NCBI RefSeq assembly: GCF_030815145.1
Contig: NZ_JAUSWJ010000001.1
Span: forward strand, 620,001-684,000
From: Kaistia geumhonensis
Lineage (GTDB): Bacteria > Pseudomonadota > Alphaproteobacteria > Rhizobiales > Kaistiaceae
Direction: 5' to 3'
Length of the DNA: 64,000 nt
Positions within the stretch are counted from its first letter, which is position 1, and every line of letters begins with the position of its first letter. Below, piece after piece: positions 4,208-64,000 of this stretch. A model generated the notes under the pieces. The model had not been told where the DNA came from. It made no database searches and was given only the letters and a program-made list of their open reading frames with translations. The position numbers were made by a program, and so were the translations under genes.

Positions 4208-4683
4208 CCAGGCTCACCCATCTCGACGAGACCGGCGCTGCCCAGATGGTCGACGTGTCGGACAAGCCCGTCACCCATCGCACCGCCATCGCCGAAGGCG
4301 CCGTGCGCATGGAGGCCGAGACGCTGCGGCTCATCATGCGCGGCATGACCGCCAAGGGCGATGTCATCGCCACGGCCCGGATCGCCGGGATCATGGCCGC
4401 CAAGAAGACGCATGAACTCGTGCCGCTCTGCCATCCGATCATGCTGGCCAAGGTCGCGATCGACATCGAGGCCGACGAGGACCTGCCGGGGCTCGTCGTG
4501 CGGGCGACGACCAAGGTGGCGGACCGGACCGGCGTCGAGATGGAGGCGCTCACCGCCGTTTCGGTCGCCTGCCTCACGATCTACGACATGGCCAAGGCGG
4601 TCGACCGCGGCATGACGATCGGCCCGATCCGTCTGGTCGAGAAGCAGGGTGGACGGTCCGGCCACTGGAAGGCAGAGCCGTGA
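4204..4683 (+). CDS. moaC: Cyclic pyranopterin monophosphate synthase MoaC
   Basis: Acts with MoaA in the first stage of molybdenum cofactor synthesis, forming cyclic pyranopterin monophosphate. The 159-residue length is normal. Signatures are [12 protein letters not shown] near residue 60 and the C-terminal [18 protein letters not shown], which carries a conserved active-site Asp/Lys pair. It overlaps the GNAT gene by 4 bases upstream and the moeA GTG downstream. A trpC-moaC-moeA arrangement is common in alphaproteobacteria and is a reliable context for the call. Confidence 0.97.
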
Positions 4684-5891
4684 AGCCGCTGCTCCCGGTC
4701 GAGGAAGCGATCCGCCGGGTTCTCGACGGCGTGGAGCCTTTGGCCGCCGAAGAGGTTCCGCTCGCCGCGGCAGTCGGGCGCGTGTTGGCCGAGCCGCTCC
4801 ATGCGCTCAGGACTCAGCCGCCGCACGACGTTTCGGCCATGGACGGCTATGCGCTGCGCGCCGCCGACATAGCTTCCACAGCCCTCCCCGCGACGCTCCG
4901 CGTCATCGGCTCCGCTCCGGCCGGACATGCCTTCGCAGGCCTGGTCGGCCCCGGCGAGGCGGTGCGCATCTTCACTGGCGCCGGTGTCCCGGATGGCGCC
5001 GACGCCATTCTGCTGCAGGAAGACGCCGCTGTCCTTCCCGATGGCCGGATCGAAGCGCGAGAGGCCGTCCGACCGGGACAGCATATCCGGCGGCGTGGTC
5101 TCGATTTCTGCGCCGGCGATCGCGTGATCGAGCCGGGCATCCGCCTGGGCATGCGCCAGCTTGCCCTCGCCGCGGCGCTGGATCACGCCAAGGTCCCCGT
5201 TCGCCGCAAGCCGGTCGTCGCGATCATCGCCACGGGGGACGAGCTGGTCCCTCCCGGCTCCGGCGACGGCGGGTCGGGGATCGTGGCGTCCAACGGATAC
5301 GGCATCGGAGCACTCGTCGAAAGCCTCGGCGGATTGGTCCGCGATCTCGGCATCGTCCGCGACGATCGCGCCGCGCTGGCCGCGGCCATCGATGCCGCGA
5401 TGGGCGCCGATGTGCTGGTCACGATCGGCGGCGCCTCGGTCGGCGATCACGATCTCGTGCGTGACGTGCTTCAAGATCGCGGGATGACGCTCGATTTCTG
5501 GCGCATCGCCATGCGGCCGGGCAAGCCGCTGCTTTTCGGGCGGCTGAAGGCGACCCGCGTTCTCAGTCTCCCGGGCAATCCGGTTTCGAGCCTCGTCTGC
5601 GCCCTGCTGTTCCTGCGGCCGCTTGTCGAAGCTCTTCTCGGAATGCCGTTTGTCGATCCCACCGTCGGAGCCCGGCTCGGCAGCCAGGTGCGCGCCAACG
5701 ATGTCCGGCAGGACTACATCCGCGCGCGGCTCACCATCGACGACGACGGCGGCCGCGTCGCCACGCCGCTGGAACGGCAGGATAGCGCGATGCTCTCCGC
5801 CTTCCACCGGGCCGAATGCCTCATCGTCCGCCCGCCTCATGCCGACGCCGAAGCGAAAGGGGCGAGATGCCGCGTCGTCATCTTGCCATGA
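4680..5891 (+). CDS. moeA: Molybdopterin molybdenumtransferase MoeA
   Basis: Inserts molybdate into adenylylated molybdopterin. The predicted protein has 403 residues with the usual domain order. The N-terminal domain carries [14 protein letters not shown]. The central MoCF-binding domain has [12 protein letters not shown] and [11 protein letters not shown], followed by RPGKPLLFG and SLPGNPVSS. The start is GTG at 4680, overlapping the moaC stop. In many alphaproteobacteria lexA follows moeA; here there is none. Confidence 0.96.
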
Positions 5892-53933: not shown

Positions 53934-54819
53934 CCAGAAACTGCGTGCCTACGCGCCGGTGATGAAGACCGTCTCGCTGCCGCGCGGCCGTCATCACCTG
54001 CACACGATGCCGACCAGTTCGGGCTACGAGATCCGCACGGAACCGCCCTATGAATGGGATGGCATGCAGCGCGGCCAGACGCCGTTCACGGTGCTTCAGC
54101 ACACGATTTCCGGCGTCGGGCAGCTTCGCTACGAGCGGCGGCGCTACCGCATCCGTCCGGGCGAGACGATGCTGGTGATGATCCCGCACAATCACCGCTA
54201 CTGGCTCGAGGCCGGGGACCGCTGGGAATATTTCTGGATATCCATGCATGGTCGCGAGGCCCTCAGGATCCATCGCGAGATCCTGGCCGCCAACGGGCCG
54301 GTGCTGCGGCTGCGCCCCGAGACCATCGAACATCTCGCGCGCTGCACGCTGCGCTTCGTGGAGGGCGAAGGCGAGACGCCCGGTGCGGCATCGGCGATCG
54401 CCTATGAGGCCGCCATGGCGCTGTTCGACGACGTGTTCGGCTCCCACACGGTGTTGCCGACCGAGGACGACGCGATCTCGCGCGCCATCCGCTTCATCCT
54501 GTCCAATCTCGACAAGCCGCTCGCAGTACCGGACCTCGCCGAGGTCGCCGGCTTCACGCGGGCGCATTTCACCCGCGTCTTCACCGAACACGAGGGGCTG
54601 CCGCCGGCCGAGTTCGTGCTGCAGCAGCGCATGCGCCGCGCCGCGTCGCTGCTCGCCAGCGACGCCTCGGTCTCGGTGAAGGATGTGGCGGTGCTGGTCG
54701 GCTTCGACGACCCCAACTATTTCGCCAAGGTCTTCCGCCGCGTGTTCGGCACGAGCCCGACGGAGTTCCGCACGACCGGCATGTACGCGACCTCGGCCGC
54801 CGGCGAGCGCCCCGGCTGA
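53917..54819 (+). CDS. agpT: AraC family regulator (AgpT-like)
   Basis: Likely activator of the divergent alpha-galactoside operon, 300 residues. The N-terminal cupin sensor covers about 20-150 (YRIRPGETMLVMIPHNHRYW). The C-terminal double helix-turn-helix starts near 190 (LDKPLAVPDLAEVAGFTRAH) and continues with ASDASVSVKDVAVLVGFDD and the AraC signature PNYFAKVFRRVFGTSPTEFR. Position and domain layout match S. meliloti agpT. No good ribosome binding site precedes the ATG at 53917 (AGAGAG is about 14 bases off), so the start is less sure than the gene. Confidence 0.88.
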   Translation: MGEIVLQKLRAYAPVMKTVSLPRGRHHLHTMPTSSGYEIRTEPPYEWDGMQRGQTPFTVLQHTISGVGQLRYERRRYRIRPGETMLVMIPHNHRYWLEAGDRWEYFWISMHGREALRIHREILAANGPVLRLRPETIEHLARCTLRFVEGEGETPGAASAIAYEAAMALFDDVFGSHTVLPTEDDAISRAIRFILSNLDKPLAVPDLAEVAGFTRAHFTRVFTEHEGLPPAEFVLQQRMRRAASLLASDASVSVKDVAVLVGFDDPNYFAKVFRRVFGTSPTEFRTTGMYATSAAGERPG

Positions 54820-54894
54820 CCGCATTTTCGGCACGACGCCTAAAGACCGGTCAGCGAAGGGGCGATTGTATACGCCAAACCATGCCCGGCACGC

Positions 54895-54910
54895 TGGCAC
54901 GCGCCTTGCT
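54895..54910 (+). promoter_or_regulatory. Sigma-54 (RpoN) promoter of the guanidine operon
   Basis: TGGCAC (54895-54900), five bases, TTGCT (54906-54910). This is the -24/-12 consensus with correct spacing. The predicted transcription start, about 12 bases past the -12 element (near 54921), falls just before the riboswitch. It implies NtrC-type nitrogen control. I do not see a clear NtrC site upstream; a dyad (GGCG/CGCC, 54861-54876) is the only candidate. Confidence 0.75.
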
Positions 54911-54929
54911 TTTCATTCTGCATTGAGTT

Positions 54930-55036
54930 GGTGGCTAGGGTTCCGGTTCCCCTCCGAGGGAATGCTGGTCCGAGAGCTGCCGCCGGCGCGGGAGACATCC
55001 GCGCCGGGCACGGCGGGATAAAATCCCGGGAGACCT
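54930..55036 (+). ncRNA. Guanidine-I (ykkC) riboswitch
   Basis: The aptamer consensus is recognisable along its whole length: CTAGGGTTCCG near 54935, CTGGTCCGAGAG at 54965-54976, a variable GC-rich stem (about 54982-55007), then ACGGCGGGATAAAATCCCGG and GAGA ending near 55033. This class binds guanidinium and turns on downstream genes. The genes that follow (ABC importer, DUF1989 pair, carboxylase, allophanate hydrolase) are its classical regulon, which makes the call firm. Confidence 0.95.
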
Positions 55037-55045
55037 CAGTGGCCA

Positions 55046-55111
55046 GGAATTGGCGACGCTCAGGTCTTTGCCAATTCCCGGTTCCAGCGAAACCTTGACC
55101 GGAGTTGGCAA
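55046..55111 (+). promoter_or_regulatory. Riboswitch expression platform: competing hairpins at the ribosome binding site
   Basis: GGAATTGGC (55046-55054) is perfectly complementary to GCCAATTCC (55070-55078). The same middle segment (55068-55081) also pairs with 55099-55111, which contains the GGAG ribosome binding site and the A of the start codon: 11 bp including one G-T, then a bulge and 2 bp more. The two folds are mutually exclusive. No U-run follows either hairpin, which argues for translational control. Confidence 0.65.
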
Positions 55112-56193
55112 TGCACGTGACGAAAGCTCTGAGACGCAGCCTCGCCGCCGGCCTGATGGCCACGGCCCTCGCCTTCTCCTTCGCCGGCTCCGCCGATGCC
55201 GCGCCCAAGAAGGACTTCAAGCTCGCCTGGTCGATCTATGTCGGCTGGATGCCATGGCAGTGGGCTGCCGAGCAGCGCATCGTCAAGAAATGGGCCGACA
55301 AATACGGCATCAGCATCGATGTCGTGCAGGTCAACGACTATGTCGAATCGATCAACCAGTACACGGCCGGCGGCTTCGATGCCGTCACGCTGACCAATAT
55401 GGACGGGCTTTCGATCCCGGCCGCGGGCGGCATCGACACGACCGCGCTCCTCGTGGGCGACTTCTCCAACGGCAATGACGCGGTCATCCTCAAGGACAAG
55501 ACGGCGCTGGCGGACATCAAGGGCCAGAAGGTCAACCTCGTCGAGTTCTCGGTCTCGCACTACCTGCTCGCCCGCGCCCTCGCCTCGATCGGCCTCACCG
55601 AGCGCGATCTCAGCGTCGTCTCGACTTCCGATGCCGACATGGTGGCAGCCTGGGCGACGCCGGAGGTGACCGCCGTCGTCACCTGGAACCCGCTGGTCGC
55701 CGAGATCATAGCGACGCCGGGCGCCAACAAGGTGTTCGATTCCTCGCAGATCCCCGGCGAGATCATCGACCTCACGGCCGTCAACACCGAGACGCTGAAG
55801 GACAATCCCGCCTTCGGCAAGGCGCTCGCCGGCGCCTGGTACGAGACCATGGCGATCATGTCGTCGGACACGCCCGAAGGTAAGGCGGCCCGCGAGGCGA
55901 TGGGCAAGGCTTCCGGCACCGATCTCGCCGGCTACGAAGCGCAGCTCAAGGCGACGCGCATGTTCTTCAAGCCGGACGAGGCCGCCGCCTTCGCCAAGAG
56001 CCCGGAGATCGGCGCCACGATGGACCATGTGCGCAGCTTCCTGTTCGACCATGGCCTGCTCGGCAACGGCGCCGACTCGGCCGACGTCGTCGGCATCGAG
56101 CTCGCCGACGGCAAGGTGCTCGGCGACACGGGCAATGTGAAGTTCCGCTTCACGGACGCATACATGGCCGACGCCGCAGCCGGAAAGCTCTGA
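55111..56193 (+). CDS. Guanidine/urea-carboxylase-region ABC transporter substrate-binding protein
   Basis: Periplasmic receptor of the importer encoded in the riboswitch operon, 360 residues. It matches the group annotated as the urea carboxylase region binding protein (NMT1/TauA-like fold). The signal peptide covers about 1-30 (LMATALAFSFAGSADA). Mature start features are FKLAWSIYVGWMPWQWA and VNDYVESINQYTAGGFDAVT, the latter aromatic/acidic as expected for a cationic ligand. The ATG at 55111 is six bases after GGAG; a TTG two codons upstream overlaps that site. Given the riboswitch, guanidinium is the likeliest ligand. Confidence 0.9.
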   Translation: MHVTKALRRSLAAGLMATALAFSFAGSADAAPKKDFKLAWSIYVGWMPWQWAAEQRIVKKWADKYGISIDVVQVNDYVESINQYTAGGFDAVTLTNMDGLSIPAAGGIDTTALLVGDFSNGNDAVILKDKTALADIKGQKVNLVEFSVSHYLLARALASIGLTERDLSVVSTSDADMVAAWATPEVTAVVTWNPLVAEIIATPGANKVFDSSQIPGEIIDLTAVNTETLKDNPAFGKALAGAWYETMAIMSSDTPEGKAAREAMGKASGTDLAGYEAQLKATRMFFKPDEAAAFAKSPEIGATMDHVRSFLFDHGLLGNGADSADVVGIELADGKVLGDTGNVKFRFTDAYMADAAAGKL

Positions 56194-56434: not shown

Positions 56435-57256
56435 ATGCGGCTGATCAATCGTCGGCCGAACGCGGGTGCCGGGCGCATTCTCGCGCTGCTGCCCTTCATC
56501 GTCGTGCTCGGCGCCTATCTCGTCGGTTCGGCGGCGCGGCTTGCCGAGAACCCGAACGACAAGCTGTTGCCGAGCCTCTCGTCGCTCGGCGCGGCGCTGC
56601 AGCGCATGGCCTTCTCGACCGACCCGCGCACCGGCGACATCCTGATGCTGGTCGATACCGAGGCGAGCCTCTACCGCCTCGCCGCGGCGCTGGCGATCGC
56701 CGTCGCGATCGGCCTCGTCCTCGGCATCGCGATCGGCCTGCTGCCCTATTTCCGCGCCGGCCTCGGCGCGTTCGTCGCCGTGGTGTCGATGGTGCCGCCG
56801 CTAGCGCTGCTGCCGATCCTCTTCATCACCATGGGCCTCGGCGAGGCATCGAAGATCGCGCTGATCGTCATCGGCGTCGCGCCCTGCCTCGTCCGCGACG
56901 TGGCGCTCAGGGTCGGCGACCTGCCGCCGCAGCAGATGATCAAGGCGCAGACGCTCGGCGCCTCGACCTGGCAGATCGTGCTGCGCGTGGTGCTGCCGCA
57001 GACCCTGCCGCGGCTCATCGATTCGCTCCGCCTGCAGATCGGGCCGGCCTGGCTGTTCCTGATCGCCGCCGAAGCCATCGCCTCCGAGTCGGGCCTCGGC
57101 TACCGCATCTTCCTCGTGCGGCGCTATCTCGCGATGGACGTGATCCTCACCTATGTCATCTGGATCACGCTGCTCGCCTTCCTGATGGACCGCGGGCTCG
57201 CGCTCTTGCAGCGACGCGCCTTCCCCTGGTTCGCAGCCGCCCGTGCGACGGGCTGA
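56435..57256 (+). CDS. ABC transporter permease, guanidine operon
   Basis: Membrane subunit of the importer, 273 residues with about six helices, of the SsuC/TauC family. The EAA loop is seen as KAQTLGASTWQIVLRVVLPQ. A longer than usual periplasmic loop occurs after helix 1 (GSAARLAENPNDKLLPSLSS). GGGGAG precedes the ATG by about 8 bases. It is separated from the binding protein gene by 241 bases containing a palindromic repeat, and 9 bases from the ATPase gene. Confidence 0.92.
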   Translation: MRLINRRPNAGAGRILALLPFIVVLGAYLVGSAARLAENPNDKLLPSLSSLGAALQRMAFSTDPRTGDILMLVDTEASLYRLAAALAIAVAIGLVLGIAIGLLPYFRAGLGAFVAVVSMVPPLALLPILFITMGLGEASKIALIVIGVAPCLVRDVALRVGDLPPQQMIKAQTLGASTWQIVLRVVLPQTLPRLIDSLRLQIGPAWLFLIAAEAIASESGLGYRIFLVRRYLAMDVILTYVIWITLLAFLMDRGLALLQRRAFPWFAAARATG

Positions 57257-57265
57257 GGGGCGGCG

Positions 57266-58102
57266 ATGAGCGTCATCAGCGTCAAGGACGTCTGGAAAGA
57301 GTACGACGACCGTGTCGTGCTGGAGGCGATCAGCCTCGAGATCGAGCCTCGCGCGTTCGTCGCGCTGGTCGGGCCGTCCGGCTGCGGCAAGACCACCTTC
57401 CTGCGCATGCTTCTCTCCGAGGAGAGGCCGGACCGCGGCACCATCGCTATTGACGGTGCTCCGCTTCCGGACGAGCCGGATTCCGGACGTGGCGTCGTGT
57501 TCCAGCGCTATTCCGTGTTTCCGCATCTGACTGTGCTCGGCAATGTCGTGCTCGGGCTCGAGCTGAAGGCCGCGCCCCTCCTTGGCCGCCTTTTCGGAGG
57601 CGCCCGCCGCGCGGCGGAGACGGAGGCGCGCGAGGTTCTCGCCGCCGTCGGGCTCGGTGGCGCGGAGGCGAAATATCCCTCTCAGCTCTCGGGCGGCATG
57701 CAGCAGCGCCTCGCCCTGGCGCAGGCGCTCATCGCGAAGCCCAAGGTGCTGCTGCTTGACGAGCCTTTCGGCGCGCTCGACCCCGGAATCCGCGCCGAAA
57801 TCCATCTACTGATGCAGCGGCTCTGGCACGAGCGGCCGCTGACCGTCGTCATGGTGACGCACGACATGTCGGAAGCCTTCACCCTCGCGACCCGCGTCAT
57901 CGCCTTCGAGCGGCGGCGCAACGAGCCGTCCGACGGCGGGCGCTACGGCGCGACCATCACGCGCGACATCGAGGTCTGGCCGAGGCGGATCGCCGGCCAG
58001 CCGAGACCATCGCGGACATCATCCTTGCCCGGCCGGGACGACCCGGCGCCTCTGACGGGAGCCAACCGGGACGACCCGGCCATCGAGGGAGCCACGCCGT
58101 GA
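57266..58102 (+). CDS. ABC transporter ATP-binding protein, guanidine operon
   Basis: ATPase of the importer, 278 residues. Walker A is GPSGCGKTT (about residues 33-41), Q-loop VVFQRYSVFPHL, signature LSGGMQQRLALAQA, Walker B VLLLDEPFGALDPG, and H-loop MVTHDMSEAF. The C-terminal 40 residues are Arg/Pro/Asp-rich and not part of the core. Its stop overlaps the GTG start of the next gene. Confidence 0.93.
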   Translation: MSVISVKDVWKEYDDRVVLEAISLEIEPRAFVALVGPSGCGKTTFLRMLLSEERPDRGTIAIDGAPLPDEPDSGRGVVFQRYSVFPHLTVLGNVVLGLELKAAPLLGRLFGGARRAAETEAREVLAAVGLGGAEAKYPSQLSGGMQQRLALAQALIAKPKVLLLDEPFGALDPGIRAEIHLLMQRLWHERPLTVVMVTHDMSEAFTLATRVIAFERRRNEPSDGGRYGATITRDIEVWPRRIAGQPRPSRTSSLPGRDDPAPLTGANRDDPAIEGATP

Positions 58103-58935
58103 ACGAGGCGACAGACCCGGCCATCGACAAGGCCGCGACGATCGAGGCGCTGCGCAAGCGCTATGAAGAACTGAAGGCCGCAGGCGACAGCGCCGCGCCG
58201 CGCGCGCTGCCGCCGCCGACGGAGGCCGGCGCCGCACCGCTTTCCGACGCGGACATCATCCATCGCGAGACGATCCCCGGCGGCTGGTACACGACCTTCA
58301 CGATCGCCGCCGGCCACGGGCTGAGGCTCGTCAACACGTCCGCGACCGGGGGCGTCTCGCTCTTCGCCTGGAACGCGCGGGATACCAGCGAGCGCTACAA
58401 CAGCGCCGATACCGTCAAGATCCAGTGGACGGCGGAGCTTCGGAAGGGCCGCGTGCTCTTCTCCGACATGGGGCGGGTCCTGTTCTCGATCGTCGAGGAC
58501 ACGACCGGCGCGCATGACACGATCGTCGGCGGCTCGACACCGGCTTCCAATCTGCGGAAATATGGCCAGGCCGACCTGCGCTCGACGCGCGGGAACATGC
58601 TGCTCGCCGCCGCCAAGCACGGCCTCGGCCTCCGCGATCTCGCTCCGGTCATCACCTTCTTCGCGCCGGTCGCTGTCGGCGGGGAGGGCGCGCTCGTCTG
58701 GCGAGACGGCATCGTCAAGGCGGGCGACTTCGTCGATCTGCGCGCCGAGCTCGACCTCATCGTCGCCGTTTCCAACTGCCCGCATCCGCTGGCGCCCGAC
58801 GCCGCCTTCGCACCGGGGCCAATCGACGCGATCCTGCATCGCCTGCCGATGCCGGCTGCGGACGATCTCTGCCGCACGGCCACCGCCGAAGCCCGACGCG
58901 GCTTCGAGAACAACGCCGCCTATGCGCTGGCCTGA
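58099..58935 (+). CDS. cgdA: Carboxyguanidine deiminase subunit A (DUF1989, formerly UAAP1)
   Basis: One of the two DUF1989 proteins always paired in these operons, 278 residues. In Pseudomonas the pair was shown to deiminate carboxyguanidine to allophanate. Family features are VNTSATGGVSLFAWNARDTS and ERYNSADTVKIQW. Where subunit B has three Cys in its metal-binding segment, this protein has Thr136, Ser146 and Pro148 with only His139 kept (TTGAHDTIVGGSTP), so it probably cannot bind the metal alone. GTG at 58099 is coupled to the ATPase stop. Confidence 0.9.
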   Translation: MNEATDPAIDKAATIEALRKRYEELKAAGDSAAPRALPPPTEAGAAPLSDADIIHRETIPGGWYTTFTIAAGHGLRLVNTSATGGVSLFAWNARDTSERYNSADTVKIQWTAELRKGRVLFSDMGRVLFSIVEDTTGAHDTIVGGSTPASNLRKYGQADLRSTRGNMLLAAAKHGLGLRDLAPVITFFAPVAVGGEGALVWRDGIVKAGDFVDLRAELDLIVAVSNCPHPLAPDAAFAPGPIDAILHRLPMPAADDLCRTATAEARRGFENNAAYALA

Positions 58936-58944
58936 GGGACGATC

Positions 58945-59607
58945 ATGAACCAGCGCCCGAACTTCTCCGCCCTCCCCGTCGCCCTCGACCCGGCGAAAGC
59001 GATCTACGACTTCACCATTCCCGCCAACCAGCCCTGGACCGGCATCGTCCGCCGCGGCCAGGTGCTGCGCATCATCGATGTCGAGGGCCAGCAGGCCGTC
59101 GACACGCTGTTCTATTCGCTGGCCGACACCTCGGAGCGCTACAGCGCGCAGGACACGATCCTGGAACAGGGCGCGCCCTATGTGACGACCGGCACGCGGC
59201 TGATGTCGAATATCGGCAATGTGCTGGCGACCGTCGTCGCCGATACATGCGGGCGGCACGACACCTCGGCGGGGGCCTGCTCCTGCGAGGCGAACATCGT
59301 GCGCTTCGGCCATCACACCAAATACATGCATGCCTGCCGCGAGAACTTCATCGTCGCGATGAGCCGCCATGGCATGACGAAGCGCGACATCGTGCCGAAC
59401 ATCAACTTCTTCATGAATGTGCCGATCGAGCCGGACGGGAAGCTCGCCATCGTCGACGGCGTCTCGCGGCCGGGCGACCATGTCGACATCCTCGCGGCGA
59501 TGGACCTGATCTCCGCCATCTCCAACTGTCCGCAGGTCAACAATCCCTGCAACGGCTTCAATCCGACGCCGGTGCGCGTGATGATCTTCGACCCGGCGAT
59601 CGCCTGA
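58945..59607 (+). CDS. cgdB: Carboxyguanidine deiminase subunit B (DUF1989, formerly UAAP2)
   Basis: Partner of CgdA, 220 residues. The probable metal site is intact: Cys102, His105, Cys112 and Cys114 in TCGRHDTSAGACSCE. Other DUF1989 features are GQQAVDTLFYSLADTSERYS and FFMNVPIEPDG. It lies 9 bases after cgdA and 5 before the carboxylase gene. It is likely the catalytic or metal-bearing subunit. Confidence 0.92.
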   Translation: MNQRPNFSALPVALDPAKAIYDFTIPANQPWTGIVRRGQVLRIIDVEGQQAVDTLFYSLADTSERYSAQDTILEQGAPYVTTGTRLMSNIGNVLATVVADTCGRHDTSAGACSCEANIVRFGHHTKYMHACRENFIVAMSRHGMTKRDIVPNINFFMNVPIEPDGKLAIVDGVSRPGDHVDILAAMDLISAISNCPQVNNPCNGFNPTPVRVMIFDPAIA

Positions 59608-59612
59608 CAGCC

Positions 59613-62600
59613 ATGTTCAGCAAGGTTCTCATCGCCAACCGGGGCGAGATCGCCGGCCGGATCGTCCGGACTTTGCGCCGGATGGGCATCGCCTCCGTCG
59701 CCGTCCATTCCGAGGCCGACCGCTTCACGCGGCCGGTGCTCGATGCCGACGAGCGCGTCGCCATCGGTCCTTCGCCAGCGAAGGACAGCTATCTCAACAT
59801 CGACGCCATCGTCGCGGCCTGCCGTGCAACCGGCGCCGAGGCCGTGCATCCGGGCTATGGCTTCCTCTCCGAAAATGCAGGTTTCGCCGAGCGCCTCGCG
59901 GCCGAGGGCATCCGCTTCATCGGGCCGCGGCCTCAACATCTGACGGCGTTCGGGCTCAAGCACACCGCCCGCGCGCTGGCCGAGGCTTCGGGCGTCCCCC
60001 TCCTTCCCGGCAGCGGCCTGATCGCCTCGGCCGGGGAGGCGCTCGCGGCGGCCGAGGTGGTGGGTTATCCGGTGATGCTGAAGAGCACCGCCGGCGGCGG
60101 CGGCATCGGCATGCAGCTTTGCCGCGACGCGGCCGAGCTTTCCGCCCGCTTCGAGGCCGTGCAGCGCATGGCCGGCAGCAGCTTCGGCGATGCGCGCGTC
60201 TATCTCGAGCGCTTCGTGGCGCGTGCCCGCCATGTCGAGGTGCAGATCTTCGGCGACGGGCAGGGCCGCGTGGTGGCGCTCGGCGAGCGCGACTGCTCGC
60301 TGCAGCGGCGCAACCAGAAGGTGATCGAGGAGACGCCGGCCCCGGGCCTCCCCGACGAGGTACGCGCCACGCTGCACCGGGCCGCCATCGCCCTCGGCGA
60401 GAGCGTCGCCTATGAATCGGCCGGTACGGTCGAGTTCATCTATGACGTGGCGCGCGGAGACGTCTCGTTCCTCGAGGTCAATACGCGCCTGCAGGTCGAG
60501 CATCCGGTGACGGAGGCGGTGTTCGGCATCGACCTCGTCGAATGGATGATCCGCCAGGCGGCCGGCGAACTGACACTGCCGCTACAGGAGACGCTCGTTC
60601 CGCGCGGCGCGGCAATCGAGGCCCGGCTCTATGCCGAGAATCCGCAGGCCGATTTCCGGCCGTCGACGGGGCTTCTGACCGAGGTCCGGTTCCCGGAGGA
60701 TGTCCGGGTCGATCGCTGGATCGAGACCGGCACGGAGGTGACGCCCTATTACGATCCGCTGCTCGCCAAGGTGATCGTCGCGGCACCCGACCGCGCGAGC
60801 GCGATCGAGAAGCTCGAAGCCGCGCTCGCAGCCTCGCGGGTCGATGGCATCGAGACCAATCTCGACTATCTCGGCGCCATCGCGCGGTCGGAGATGTTCC
60901 GGAGCGGCGAGGTCTCGACGGCCGCGCTCAGGACCCTCCCCTTCGAGCCACGCGCGATCGAGGTGATCGCGCCGGGCGCCCAGACCAGCGTGCAGGACTG
61001 GCCCGGCCGCCTCGGCCTGTGGAATGTCGGCGTGCCGCCATCCGGACCGATGGACAGCCGCTCGCACCGCCTCGCCAACCGCATCGTCGGCAATGACGAG
61101 CGGGCGGCGGCGCTGGAGATGACGGTCGCAGGGCCGACGCTTCGCTTCCACCGCGCCGCCGTGATCGCCATCACCGGCGCCGACATGGCGCCGAAGCTGG
61201 ACGGAGCGCTGATCGCGGCCTTCGAGCCGGTCGCGGTCCCGGCCGGAGCCGTACTTTCCTTCGGGCCGGTCGGCGGTCCCGGCCAGCGCGCCTATCTGGC
61301 GGTCCGCGGCGGCATTGATGCTCCGCTCTTCCTGGGCTCGCGGGCGAATTTCAGCCTCGGCCGGTTCGGCGGCCACGCCACCGGCACACTGGTGGCCGGC
61401 GACGTGCTCAAGATCGGCGACCTCGCCGTGACGCAGCCCTTGGCCGTGTCCGAGGCCGAGCGGCCGGACCTGGTGCGGGAATGGGTGATCGGCGTCCGCT
61501 CCGGCCCCCACGGCGCGCCCGACTTCTTTACCGAAGACGACATCGGGACGCTGTTCTCGGCCCGGTACGAGGTTCACTTCAACTCCTCGCGCACCGGCGT
61601 CCGCCTGATCGGCCCGCAGCCGCGATGGGCACGCGCCGATGGCGGGGAAGCCGGGCTGCACCCCTCCAACATCCATGACAACGCCTATGCCATCGGCGCC
61701 ATCGACTTCACCGGCGACATGCCGATCATTCTCGGCCCGGACGGCCCCAGCCTCGGCGGCTTCGTCTGCCCGGCGGTGATCGCCCGCGACGAACTCTGGA
61801 AGATGGGGCAGCTGAAGCCCGGGGACGGCGTGAGGTTCGTCGAGGCTGAAGGCCAGGGCGCTCCGGCTGAAGACTCCCGTCCCCAGCCCTCCCCCGCTTC
61901 GCAGGAGTGGGAGCGGGCGGAGCCCGTCACCATCATCGATGCCAGCCGCGATCAGCCCTCTCCCCCCTTGTGGGGGAGAGAGCGTGCGGCGGGCCTTCCA
62001 CCGCACCCCGCCTCGCCTGTCCTCGCCACGCGCGATGACGGCCCGGTGCGCGTCGTCTATCGCCGCGCCGGCGACGACAATCTGTTGGTCGAGTTCGGCC
62101 CGATGGCGCTCGACATCGCGCTCCGTCTCCGCGTCCACCTGATGATGGAAGCCGTGTCGGCGGCGAAGCTGCCCGGCATCATCGACCTGACCCCCGGCAT
62201 CCGCTCGCTGCAGGTTCATTTCGACGGGACGAGCCTTTCGATGGCGCGTCTCATCGATGCGCTGCAGGCGATCGAAGCCGCGCTTCCGGCTGTCGACGAC
62301 GTGACCGTGCCGTCGCGCATCGTCCACCTGCCGCTCTCCTGGAACGATCCGTCGGTCCAGCTGGCAATGCGCAAGTACCAGGAACTGGTGCGGCCTGATG
62401 CGCCCTGGTGTCCGTCGAACATCGAATTCATCCGCCGCATCAACGGCCTCGACACGATCGAGGATGTGAAGCGCATCGTGTTCGACGCGGACTATCTCGT
62501 GCTCGGGCTCGGCGACGTCTATCTCGGCGCGCCGGTGGCGACGCCGCTCGATCCGCGACACCGCCTCGTGACGACCAAATACAATCCGGCCCGCACCTGG

Positions 62601-63266
62601 ACGCCGGAAAACGCGGTCGGCATCGGCGGCGCCTATCTCTGCATCTATGGCATGGAGGGGCCGGGCGGCTACCAGCTGTTCGGGCGGACGATCCAGATGT
62701 GGAACGCCTGGCGGCAGACGCCGGAGTTCACGCCGGGCCATCCCTGGCTGCTGCGCTTTTTCGACCGCATCCGCTTCTTCGAAGTGAGCGAGGCGGAGCT
62801 CGCGGAGGCGCGCGCCGCCTTCCCGCATGGGCGCTACCCCGTGCGCATCGAGGAGACGCGCTTCTCGCATGCCGACTATGCGAGGTCGCTCGCCGACAAT
62901 GCCGAAGGCATCGCGGCGTTCAAGGCGCGACAGCAGGCCGCCTTCGAGGCCGAGCGGCTCGACTGGAAGACGCGCGGGCTCGACAGCTTCGTCAGCGACG
63001 ACGGCGGGCCGGCGGCAGAGAGCGACACCGACATTCCGGACGGCCAGCAGGCCGTCGCCGCGCATATGACGGGCAATGTCTGGAAGATACTGGTGGATGA
63101 AGGCGCGATGGTGGAGGCCGGCCAGCCGGTCGTCATCGTCGAATCGATGAAGATGGAAATGGAAATCGCGACGCCCGTGGCGGGCCGTGTCGCCGGCCTG
63201 CGCTGTCAGGTCGGACGGACGGTGCGCGCCGGCGATATTGTCGCGCTGATTGAAGGAGCCCCGTGA
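59613..63266 (+). CDS. Biotin-dependent guanidine (urea) carboxylase
   Basis: ATP- and bicarbonate-dependent carboxylase, 1217 residues. Order: biotin carboxylase (1-450; [46 protein letters not shown]), then the AHS2/KipA-like part (from about 457, [18 protein letters not shown]), AHS1/KipI-like (from about 805) and the biotinyl domain with VESMKMEME, biotin on Lys1180. Commonly annotated as urea carboxylase, but behind a guanidine-I riboswitch and next to cgdAB it should act on guanidine. Residues about 745-805, between AHS2 and AHS1, are a low-complexity insert encoded by palindromic repeats. It starts 5 bases after cgdB; its stop overlaps the next ATG. Confidence 0.93.
61885..61980. repeat. 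Two palindromic repeats inserted in frame in the carboxylase gene
   Basis: A degenerate palindrome (61887-61913, CCCTCCCCCGCTTCGC core) and a perfect 9-bp hairpin (CTCTCCCCC at 61958-61966, GGGGGAGAG at 61972-61980, 5-base loop) lie 45 bases apart within the reading frame. They encode a Pro/Ser/Arg-rich linker ([11 protein letters not shown], then [12 protein letters not shown]). The first resembles the intergenic copy at 56311-56352. Confidence 0.6.
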
Positions 63267-64000
63267 TGCTGCCGACTTTTCTCGATATCGCGACGCTCTC
63301 GAAGGGCTATCGCAGCGGCGCCTTCACGCCGGTCGACGTCATCCGCGCCGTGATCGAGCGCATCGAAGCCTGGCCGGACCGCGCCGTCTGGATCTCGCGC
63401 TTCGACGACGCGGCGCTGGTCGCGGCGGCCGAGGCGCTCGTGGCGGCCGGAGCCCCCTCCGACGACCAGCCGCTCTGGGGAATCCCCTTCGCGGTGAAGG
63501 ACAATATCGACGTCGCCGGGCTCGAGACGACCGCCGCCTGCCCCGCCTTCGCCTATCGTCCGGACCGCGACGCGACGGTCGTAGCGCGGCTGAAGGCAGC
63601 CGGCGCCATCGTCGTCGGCAAGACCAATCTCGACCAGTTCGCGACCGGCCTCAACGGCACCCGCTCGCCTTATGGCGCGCCACGCTCCGTGTTCAACGAG
63701 GCCTATGTCTCGGGCGGCTCCTCCTCGGGCTCGGCGGTCGCCGTCGCCTCGGGACAGGTTGCCTTCGCGCTCGGGACGGATACGGCAGGATCCGGGCGCA
63801 TTCCTGCGGCCTTCAACAATCTCGTCGGGGTTAAGCCCTCGCGCGGCATGCTCTCGGGCAGCGGGCTGGTGCCGGCCTGCCGCAGCCTCGACTGCATCAC
63901 CGTGATGGCGGGGACGGCGGGCGATGCCGACCTCGTGCGCCGCGTCGCGGCCGGGTACGACGCGGCCGATCCCTATTCGCGCGATCTTCCGGCGGCGGCC
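63266..64000 (+). CDS. atzF: Allophanate hydrolase (3' end beyond window)
   Basis: Splits allophanate to ammonia and CO2, the last step of the pathway. The first 245 residues are present; the frame is open to the window edge. The amidase triad is visible: Lys78 in AVKDNID, cis-Ser in [13 protein letters not shown], and nucleophile Ser176 in DTAGSGR. The N-terminus and the neighbouring genes separate it from GatA, which it resembles. The ATG at 63266 overlaps the carboxylase stop. A C-terminal decarboxylation domain would lie outside the window if present. Confidence 0.93.

Follow-up and report, generated by a model that had tools for sequence, protein, structure and literature searches.

Does a guanidine assimilation operon answer to guanidine alone, or also to the nitrogen status of the cell? 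This question is raised by a 64,000-nucleotide stretch of the Kaistia geumhonensis genome (hereafter, the window), in which a sequence with the form of a sigma-54 promoter lies directly in front of a guanidine-I riboswitch, followed by genes for an ABC importer and a guanidine carboxylase pathway (Table 1). We give a probability of roughly four in five to the reading that an NtrC-dependent sigma-54 promoter and a guanidine-I riboswitch releasing translation act in series as an AND gate. Under nitrogen shortage NtrC would activate the sigma-54 promoter, and transcription would begin at about 54921, so that the aptamer would be the first part of the transcript made. Guanidine binding would then release the expression of the importer and of the guanidine carboxylase pathway.

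Table 1. Position of the control elements and genes of the operon within the window
Feature	Position	Strand	Basis
Candidate NtrC site 1, degenerate palindrome	54816-54834		10.7 bits; 79 nt before the -24 box
Candidate NtrC site 2, degenerate	54836-54854		9.4 bits; 59 nt before the -24 box
Sigma-54 -24/-12 promoter TGGCACGCGCCTTGCT	54895-54910	+	Exact match in a conserved place
Predicted transcription start (+1)	54921	+	12 nt past the -12 C (54909), by the spacing rule
Guanidine-I riboswitch aptamer (RF00442)	54924-55034	+	85.2 bits, cut-off 63
Segment a GGAATTGGC	55046-55054	+	Possible pairing partner of b; putative role, from sequence
Segment b GCCAATTCC	55070-55078	+	Could pair with either a or c; predicted folds show b-c pairing
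Segment c GGAGTTGGC	55101-55109	+	Holds the likely Shine-Dalgarno GGAG ahead of ATG 55111
ABC importer substrate-binding protein	55111-56193	+	TIGR03427, 543.5 bits, cut-off 333.9
ABC importer permease	56435-57256	+	PF00528
ABC importer ATPase	57266-58102	+	PF00005
Guanidine-II riboswitch aptamer (RF01068)	58030-58079	+	39.3 bits, cut-off 32
UAAP1, DUF1989, carboxyguanidine deiminase subunit	58099-58935	+	TIGR03425, 270.8 bits, cut-off 205.95
UAAP2, DUF1989, carboxyguanidine deiminase subunit	58945-59607	+	TIGR03424, 322.4 bits, cut-off 284.7
Guanidine carboxylase (family name urea carboxylase)	59613-63266	+	TIGR02712, 1858.5 bits; Asp698, Asp968
Allophanate hydrolase, truncated by the window end	63266-64000	+	Closest models are those of allophanate hydrolase; scores below cut-offs (partial)

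The promoter, the riboswitch and the operon

The box that a first-pass annotation of the sequence had read as TGGCAC-N5-TTGCT is present at 54895-54910, where TGGCACG-N4-TTGCT forms a perfect -24/-12 match: the GG of the -24 and the GC of the -12 element are correctly spaced, and the consensus is exact. TGGCACNNNNNTTGC without mismatch occurs once within the window, at 54895. With up to two mismatches, it gave 42 matches in the window against a shuffle mean of 53, which is not above chance, and hence the 54895 match is informative only by its quality and its place. For the stricter TGGCAYRNNNNTTGCW, the 4,587,821-base genome holds 5 exact matches over both strands, the 54895 site among them, and the reversed pattern, as a control, has 2 in the same 4.59 Mb. 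Sigma-54-dependent transcription starts about 12 nt after the -12 element; counted from the C at 54909, the predicted start is at about 54921, 3 nt ahead of the first base of the aptamer model, in agreement with the earlier placement directly before the aptamer. The genome also carries an intact rpoN (426.9 bits) together with an activator containing the GAFTGA motif. A simple scan of 54700-55200, which is a crude test for this bacterial group, found no sigma-70 promoter.

An AraC-like gene lies directly upstream of the promoter region, and its stop codon is overlapped by candidate NtrC site 1. This neighbor was considered as the regulator and rejected, as it was found upstream in only 4 loci of one genus when 600 or 1500 nt were searched. 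A TTGTATAC/TTGCATAC element, possibly an operator or a weak extended -10, stands downstream of the NtrC-like sites and upstream of the sigma-54 box in several same-genus loci (54863-54875 in the window); a GTATAC-type element was found in 11/113 alphaproteobacterial loci against 2.3 in shuffles, mainly within the genus.

The guanidine-I riboswitch that had been placed in front of the operon was recovered by the RF00442 covariance model over its gathering cut-off. Beside the carboxylase stand two DUF1989 proteins, a family that we take to be COG3665, and an allophanate hydrolase, which is the gene set of a guanidine carboxylase operon. Residues of the carboxylase were placed via an alignment with 3va7, whose offset against 5i8i, presumably the full-length K. 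lactis enzyme, is 593. Guanidine carboxylases are diagnosed by Asp at K. lactis positions 1330 and 1584 (PMC11410670), and both residues are present here as Asp698 and Asp968. Within the operon, the guanidine-II aptamer is nested in the coding end of the ATPase gene, ahead of UAAP1. Rhizobium leguminosarum 248, whose copy of the operon is preceded by an exact box, shows the same nesting (L354, aptamer at 5051-5100 inside the coding sequence 4299-5129), and in Agrobacterium tumefaciens B6 a guanidine-II aptamer (L292, 4207-4253) lies downstream of guanidine-I.

The genome contains a second guanidine-I riboswitch (L002/L090, G000:C1:3373350-3373463, minus strand), with a TGGCACGGTGCTTGC box 27 nt upstream. 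By eye, it precedes another ABC importer consisting of ATPase, permease and binding protein. Its aptamer has CTAGGGATCC and AGGACCGAGAG in place of the usual CTAGGGTTCC and TGGTCCGAGAG, and the best NtrC-like site lies 241 nt upstream, beyond the usual range.

Conservation of the box and the upstream motif

A search of 397 genomes of the order with RF00442 located 122 places, spread over 101 genomes; 92 of these places exceed the cut-off, among them both loci of the K. geumhonensis genome. The alignment of upstream regions in Hyphomicrobiales that the first-pass annotation had proposed as a check was run, and boxes were counted when they started 18-33 nt ahead of the aptamer. The box is exact at 39 of the 92 places, has at most one mismatch at 78 and at most two at 81; control windows elsewhere upstream gave 0/1840 and 5/1840 at one and two mismatches, respectively. 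When aligned, the 81 boxed stretches, which represent 20 families by hand count, were all distinct, with invariant or nearly invariant box cores and unconserved flanking bases. In all 81, the predicted start falls between -5 and +6 nt of the first aptamer base.

The arrangement is also found outside the order. Of 21 above-cut-off loci from the other orders of the class, 14 have the box at an equal distance (one mismatch or none in 13), and in the rest of the phylum 37/40 have it within 110 nt (one mismatch or none in 35), with shifted control windows in these outside-class loci giving 1, 0 and 0 of 40. One locus, L154, was left out of the box counts, since its aptamer lies at a contig end with the upstream DNA absent. 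Outside the class, the box stands 49-99 nt before the aptamer, with an additional leader in between. An Rfam scan of 12 longer-leader loci detected no additional RNA family in the stretch from box to aptamer; by eye, several outside-class leaders (e.g., L157, L164 and L165) have GTGC...GCAC around a CCGG-type hairpin. When named genomes were scanned with the pattern, at least 120 stretches matched, and among the matches listed are Rhizobium, Agrobacterium, Mesorhizobium, Bradyrhizobium, Azospirillum, Xanthobacter, Devosia, Thalassospira, Acinetobacter and Solimonas. One Mycobacterium-titled record and one Anaerolineae metagenome-assembled genome, also among the matches listed, are taken for mislabeled or mixed.

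Paired units were seen in two Burkholderia-type records. Paraburkholderia sprentiae (L353) has two divergent sigma-54/guanidine-I units with three genes between them, each aptamer with a one-mismatch box; UAAP1, UAAP2, carboxylase and allophanate hydrolase lie behind one unit and an ABC binding protein behind the other. An unannotated plasmid record of a Burkholderia cenocepacia strain other than H111 (L363) has two divergent guanidine-I aptamers, again each with a one-mismatch box, and these units are close together, facing apart.

A further element, CGTGCAG, recurs at +1 to +7 of many such promoters, with constant spacing from the -12 box. TGCAG starts exactly 14 nt past the -12 C in 29/96 alphaproteobacterial loci, 11/37 loci outside the class and 0/30 P-II promoters; the window reads CATTGAG instead at 54921-54927. 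The presence of CGTGCAG also in lineages with the aptamer further downstream hints at an additional leader function that has so far gone unrecognized.

Boxes precede 67/69 binding-protein-first loci in the order, 13/14 in the class set and 27/32 in the phylum set; UAAP1-first loci are boxed in 5/10 and 3/3 cases, and permease- or ATPase-first loci in 6/6 (order), 0/3 (class) and 5/5 (phylum). An agmatinase-like gene lies downstream of two box-less loci. In one family, two genomes have a boxed importer operon and a separate, box-less, UAAP1-first guanidine-I operon (L020/L045 in G193 and L051/L060 in G034); importer and enzymes may there follow different nitrogen rules. Below the cut-off, a box was found at 1/30 places in the order (L104, 61.9 bits), and the longest downstream frame was an EamA-type membrane protein in 24/30 by eye (L105-L133 group), with three of those frames matching PF00892 when checked. 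These below-cut-off aptamers may, we presume, form another ykkC subtype. In the class and phylum sets, 1/3 below-cut-off places (L153) has a two-mismatch match at -33.

The presence of rpoN was surveyed in the class and phylum genomes and in the box-less genomes of the order; as the latter had been picked as box-less, the statistic drew on the class and phylum part only. Loci in rpoN-deficient genomes (gene lacking, fragmentary or split, or represented by two full-length copies that score below the cut-off) were boxed in 0/4 cases versus 51/57 elsewhere (p 4e-4), or in 0/3 versus 51/58 (p 3e-3) when the two-copy genome was recounted as rpoN-positive. These cases, in which the box is absent where rpoN is missing or broken, agree with a sigma-54 promoter as first proposed; being few and partly related (3/4 from one family), and grouped post hoc, they are a hint and not a test. 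The 11 box-less loci of the order include 10 in genomes with rpoN over the cut-off and one, L027, in a genome with rpoN in three pieces. The best -35/-10 matches of 22 box-less loci were mostly 6-9 of 12, which is shuffle-like, with one at 10 of 12.

Which activator would serve these promoters was approached through their upstream DNA. A dyad search upstream of 133 boxes found TGCC-N9-GGCA in 16/96 alphaproteobacterial loci (0.75 expected) and GCAC-N7-GTGC in 10/37 loci outside the class (0.25 expected); L106, L149, L153 and L019, whose best box is out of place, were not part of this set. A palindromic alphaproteobacterial matrix trained on half of the genomes scored above 10 bits in 35/49, 37/49 and 38/48 held-out loci and in 2-3% of shuffles, and the held-out sites lie mostly 40-150 nt upstream of the box. 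In controls it exceeded 10 bits at 0/29 box-less places (29/30 used, with the boxed L104 at 61.9 bits left out) and in 5/96 far-upstream stretches; 17/96 alphaproteobacterial loci are without a copy above this score. A motif also emerged when training was repeated on shuffled sequence, but fewer loci exceeded 8 bits (29-41/96 versus 87/96 for real sequence). The seed and thresholds of the matrices were tuned on these data, and the results that are independent of the training loci are those of the split halves and of the P-II promoters. Outside the class, the alphaproteobacterial matrix found sites in only 3/37 loci, and a separately trained matrix found them in 7/17, 10/20 and 10/22 held-out loci (shuffles below 3%).

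P-II genes are NtrC targets, and none was included in the training of the alphaproteobacterial matrix. It nevertheless matched 28/30 P-II sigma-54 promoters of the order above 10 bits (shuffles 3%), 26 of the 28 lying 91-132 nt before the box; the 30 places are those that came with the loci, out of a longer list. Both P-II promoters of the K. geumhonensis genome were matched, at 10.8 and 17.5 bits. As the palindrome is common to guanidine-I boxes and P-II promoters, NtrC is the likely activator of the window promoter, to judge from the sequences. The NtrC of this genome (TIGR01818, 725 bits) has the GAFTGA motif, which matters because the motif is missing from Caulobacter NtrC (PMC12421884).

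In the window itself, the earlier view that no clear NtrC site is visible in the 75 bases upstream has to be modified, as two degenerate matches to the motif were found (Table 1). The score of site 1 was equaled in 4/2000 shuffles of the 150 nt upstream, and the site is kept in one same-genus locus, L047. The matrix that scored both sites had this locus in its training, and the whole 64-kb window holds 7 sites of at least 9.4 bits and 5 of at least 10.7 bits. Four further loci of the genus have sites scoring 10.9 to 15.4 bits, 58-79 nt before the box that precedes the same operon.

The guanidine step and other explanations

Binding of guanidine switches expression on in the guanidine-I class. 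In the window, the Shine-Dalgarno sequence at 55101-55104 would probably be freed from the segment 55070-55078 on guanidine binding, through the three segments a, b and c, a pattern kept by eye in several related loci (15 loci shown). The predicted fold of the full leader has the Shine-Dalgarno sequence paired and the 3' end of the aptamer paired to downstream bases (z -2.67). When the part 3' of the aptamer was folded alone, the Shine-Dalgarno sequence was still predicted to be paired, which would require a kinetic switch. From these models we prefer a translational on-switch of this kinetic kind. Nitrogen shortage would then set transcription and guanidine would set translation; as two controls in series on one transcript, they would make an AND gate.

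That guanidine acts instead on transcription elongation behind a genuine sigma-54 promoter, by attenuation of, for example, a Rho-dependent kind, is possible but doubtful. The energies do not make the translational model compelling, given the Shine-Dalgarno sequence sequestered even in the fold without the aptamer. Against attenuation, a simple scan of 54700-55200 found no intrinsic terminator after the aptamer, and the segments before the ATG resemble a translational switch that recurs in related loci. A published observation bears on the same point: in B. cenocepacia H111 the mRNA of a matching cluster depends on NtrC, and guanidine is not mentioned in the part of the study available to us (PMC5491218), and thus guanidine may act mainly on translation and not on the mRNA level. 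Should the mRNA prove to be NtrC-dependent in cultures given no guanidine, guanidine would be expected to act on translation or on a leaky transcript.

The promoter side has its own alternatives. An enhancer-binding protein other than NtrC may drive the sigma-54 promoter in this genus, which we consider unlikely. The genome has 6 strong Sigma54_activat matches, with GAFTGA in NtrC and 4 others (5 of the 6 read), and NtrC is therefore not the sole candidate; the degenerate state of the window's NtrC-like sites would also fit another activator. This is opposed by the motif common to the loci of many families and to P-II promoters, by the better sites in the four other loci of the genus and by the ntrC dependence published for B. 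cenocepacia (PMC5491218). Together, the shared motif and the ntrC-mutant RNA-seq of a matching cluster in another species support the NtrC involvement that the first-pass annotation had proposed. Still less probable is a riboswitch acting as the sole working control, with the sigma-54 box minor and transcription coming from an unrecognized sigma-70-type promoter or from read-through of the AraC-like gene. Other promoters can evidently drive the riboswitch, as 10/92 loci of the order are box-less despite rpoN; however, the box is kept in 81/92, the crude sigma-70 scan was negative, and the AraC-like gene is confined to the few loci noted above. A chance match of the box next to the riboswitch has a negligible probability and was rejected: the looser pattern forms are common, and nothing else speaks for it, whereas the position is conserved across order, class and phylum and the exact pattern has only 5 sites in the genome. 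We therefore retain NtrC-dependent transcription followed by guanidine-dependent translation as the preferred reading of the window.

Meaning and comparison with known systems

If this reading is true, the guanidine assimilation operons of Pseudomonadota are also under the general system for nitrogen starvation, which mostly does not extend to the related aptamers in front of EamA-type transporters. ATP would not be spent on guanidine when ammonium is plentiful, and guanidine induction tests in ammonium-rich media would miss the response. The operon would also represent a natural two-input switch made from well-known parts. We hold the chances to be even for a wider claim, namely that sigma-54/NtrC and guanidine-I form one conserved module of Pseudomonadota, with the riboswitch at the very start of the transcript in Hyphomicrobiales-type genomes, nitrogen being read by a protein and guanidine by an RNA, probably at translation. 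Searches of the open-licence literature, from which most subscription papers are missing, turned up no description of the link between sigma-54 and guanidine-I, of its position rule or of its breadth. As far as that literature shows, the parts were known already, and the combination, its position rule and its breadth are new.

In a review (PMC12186494), importer and deiminase genes are said to be preceded by guanidine-I, and carboxylase and allophanate hydrolase genes by guanidine-II; operons that begin with guanidine-I and carry guanidine-II at a later position are described as well. The guanidine carboxylase operons described there are like that of the window in aptamer family and gene set; the guanidine-II aptamer of the window precedes UAAP1, whereas that of the review precedes the carboxylase. 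Besides transporters and enzymes, riboswitches are the sole guanidine receptors named in the part of the review available to us, with no nitrogen regulator mentioned. Its main text has no mention of NtrC, RpoN, sigma, NtcA or nitrogen starvation or limitation, whereas here a promoter class and a likely activator are assigned.

Sigma-54 control was predicted in 2025 for 102 COG3665 genes of alpha-, beta- and gammaproteobacteria, 59% of which were called urea carboxylase (PMC12316311). That prediction for COG3665 gene clusters is in line with ours. In contrast to the present analysis, guanidine is absent from the main text of that paper, riboswitch appears once, in the title of a reference, and the link between promoter and aptamer is missing.

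The closest experimental counterpart is the NtrC regulon of B. cenocepacia H111, reported in 2017 (PMC5491218). In RNA-seq of an ntrC mutant under nitrogen limitation, urea carboxylase was strongly down, at a log2 ratio of -6.0, and the same list gives its ABC binding protein and a neighboring 'aminomethyltransferase' without a ratio, owing to read number. Judging from gene content, we infer that this cluster is the same locus as in the other B. cenocepacia strain described above. The part of the H111 study available to us does not mention a riboswitch, and the box with guanidine-I was seen here in that other strain. The urea carboxylase cluster of H111, NtrC-dependent as is predicted for that of the window, likewise includes an ABC binding protein.
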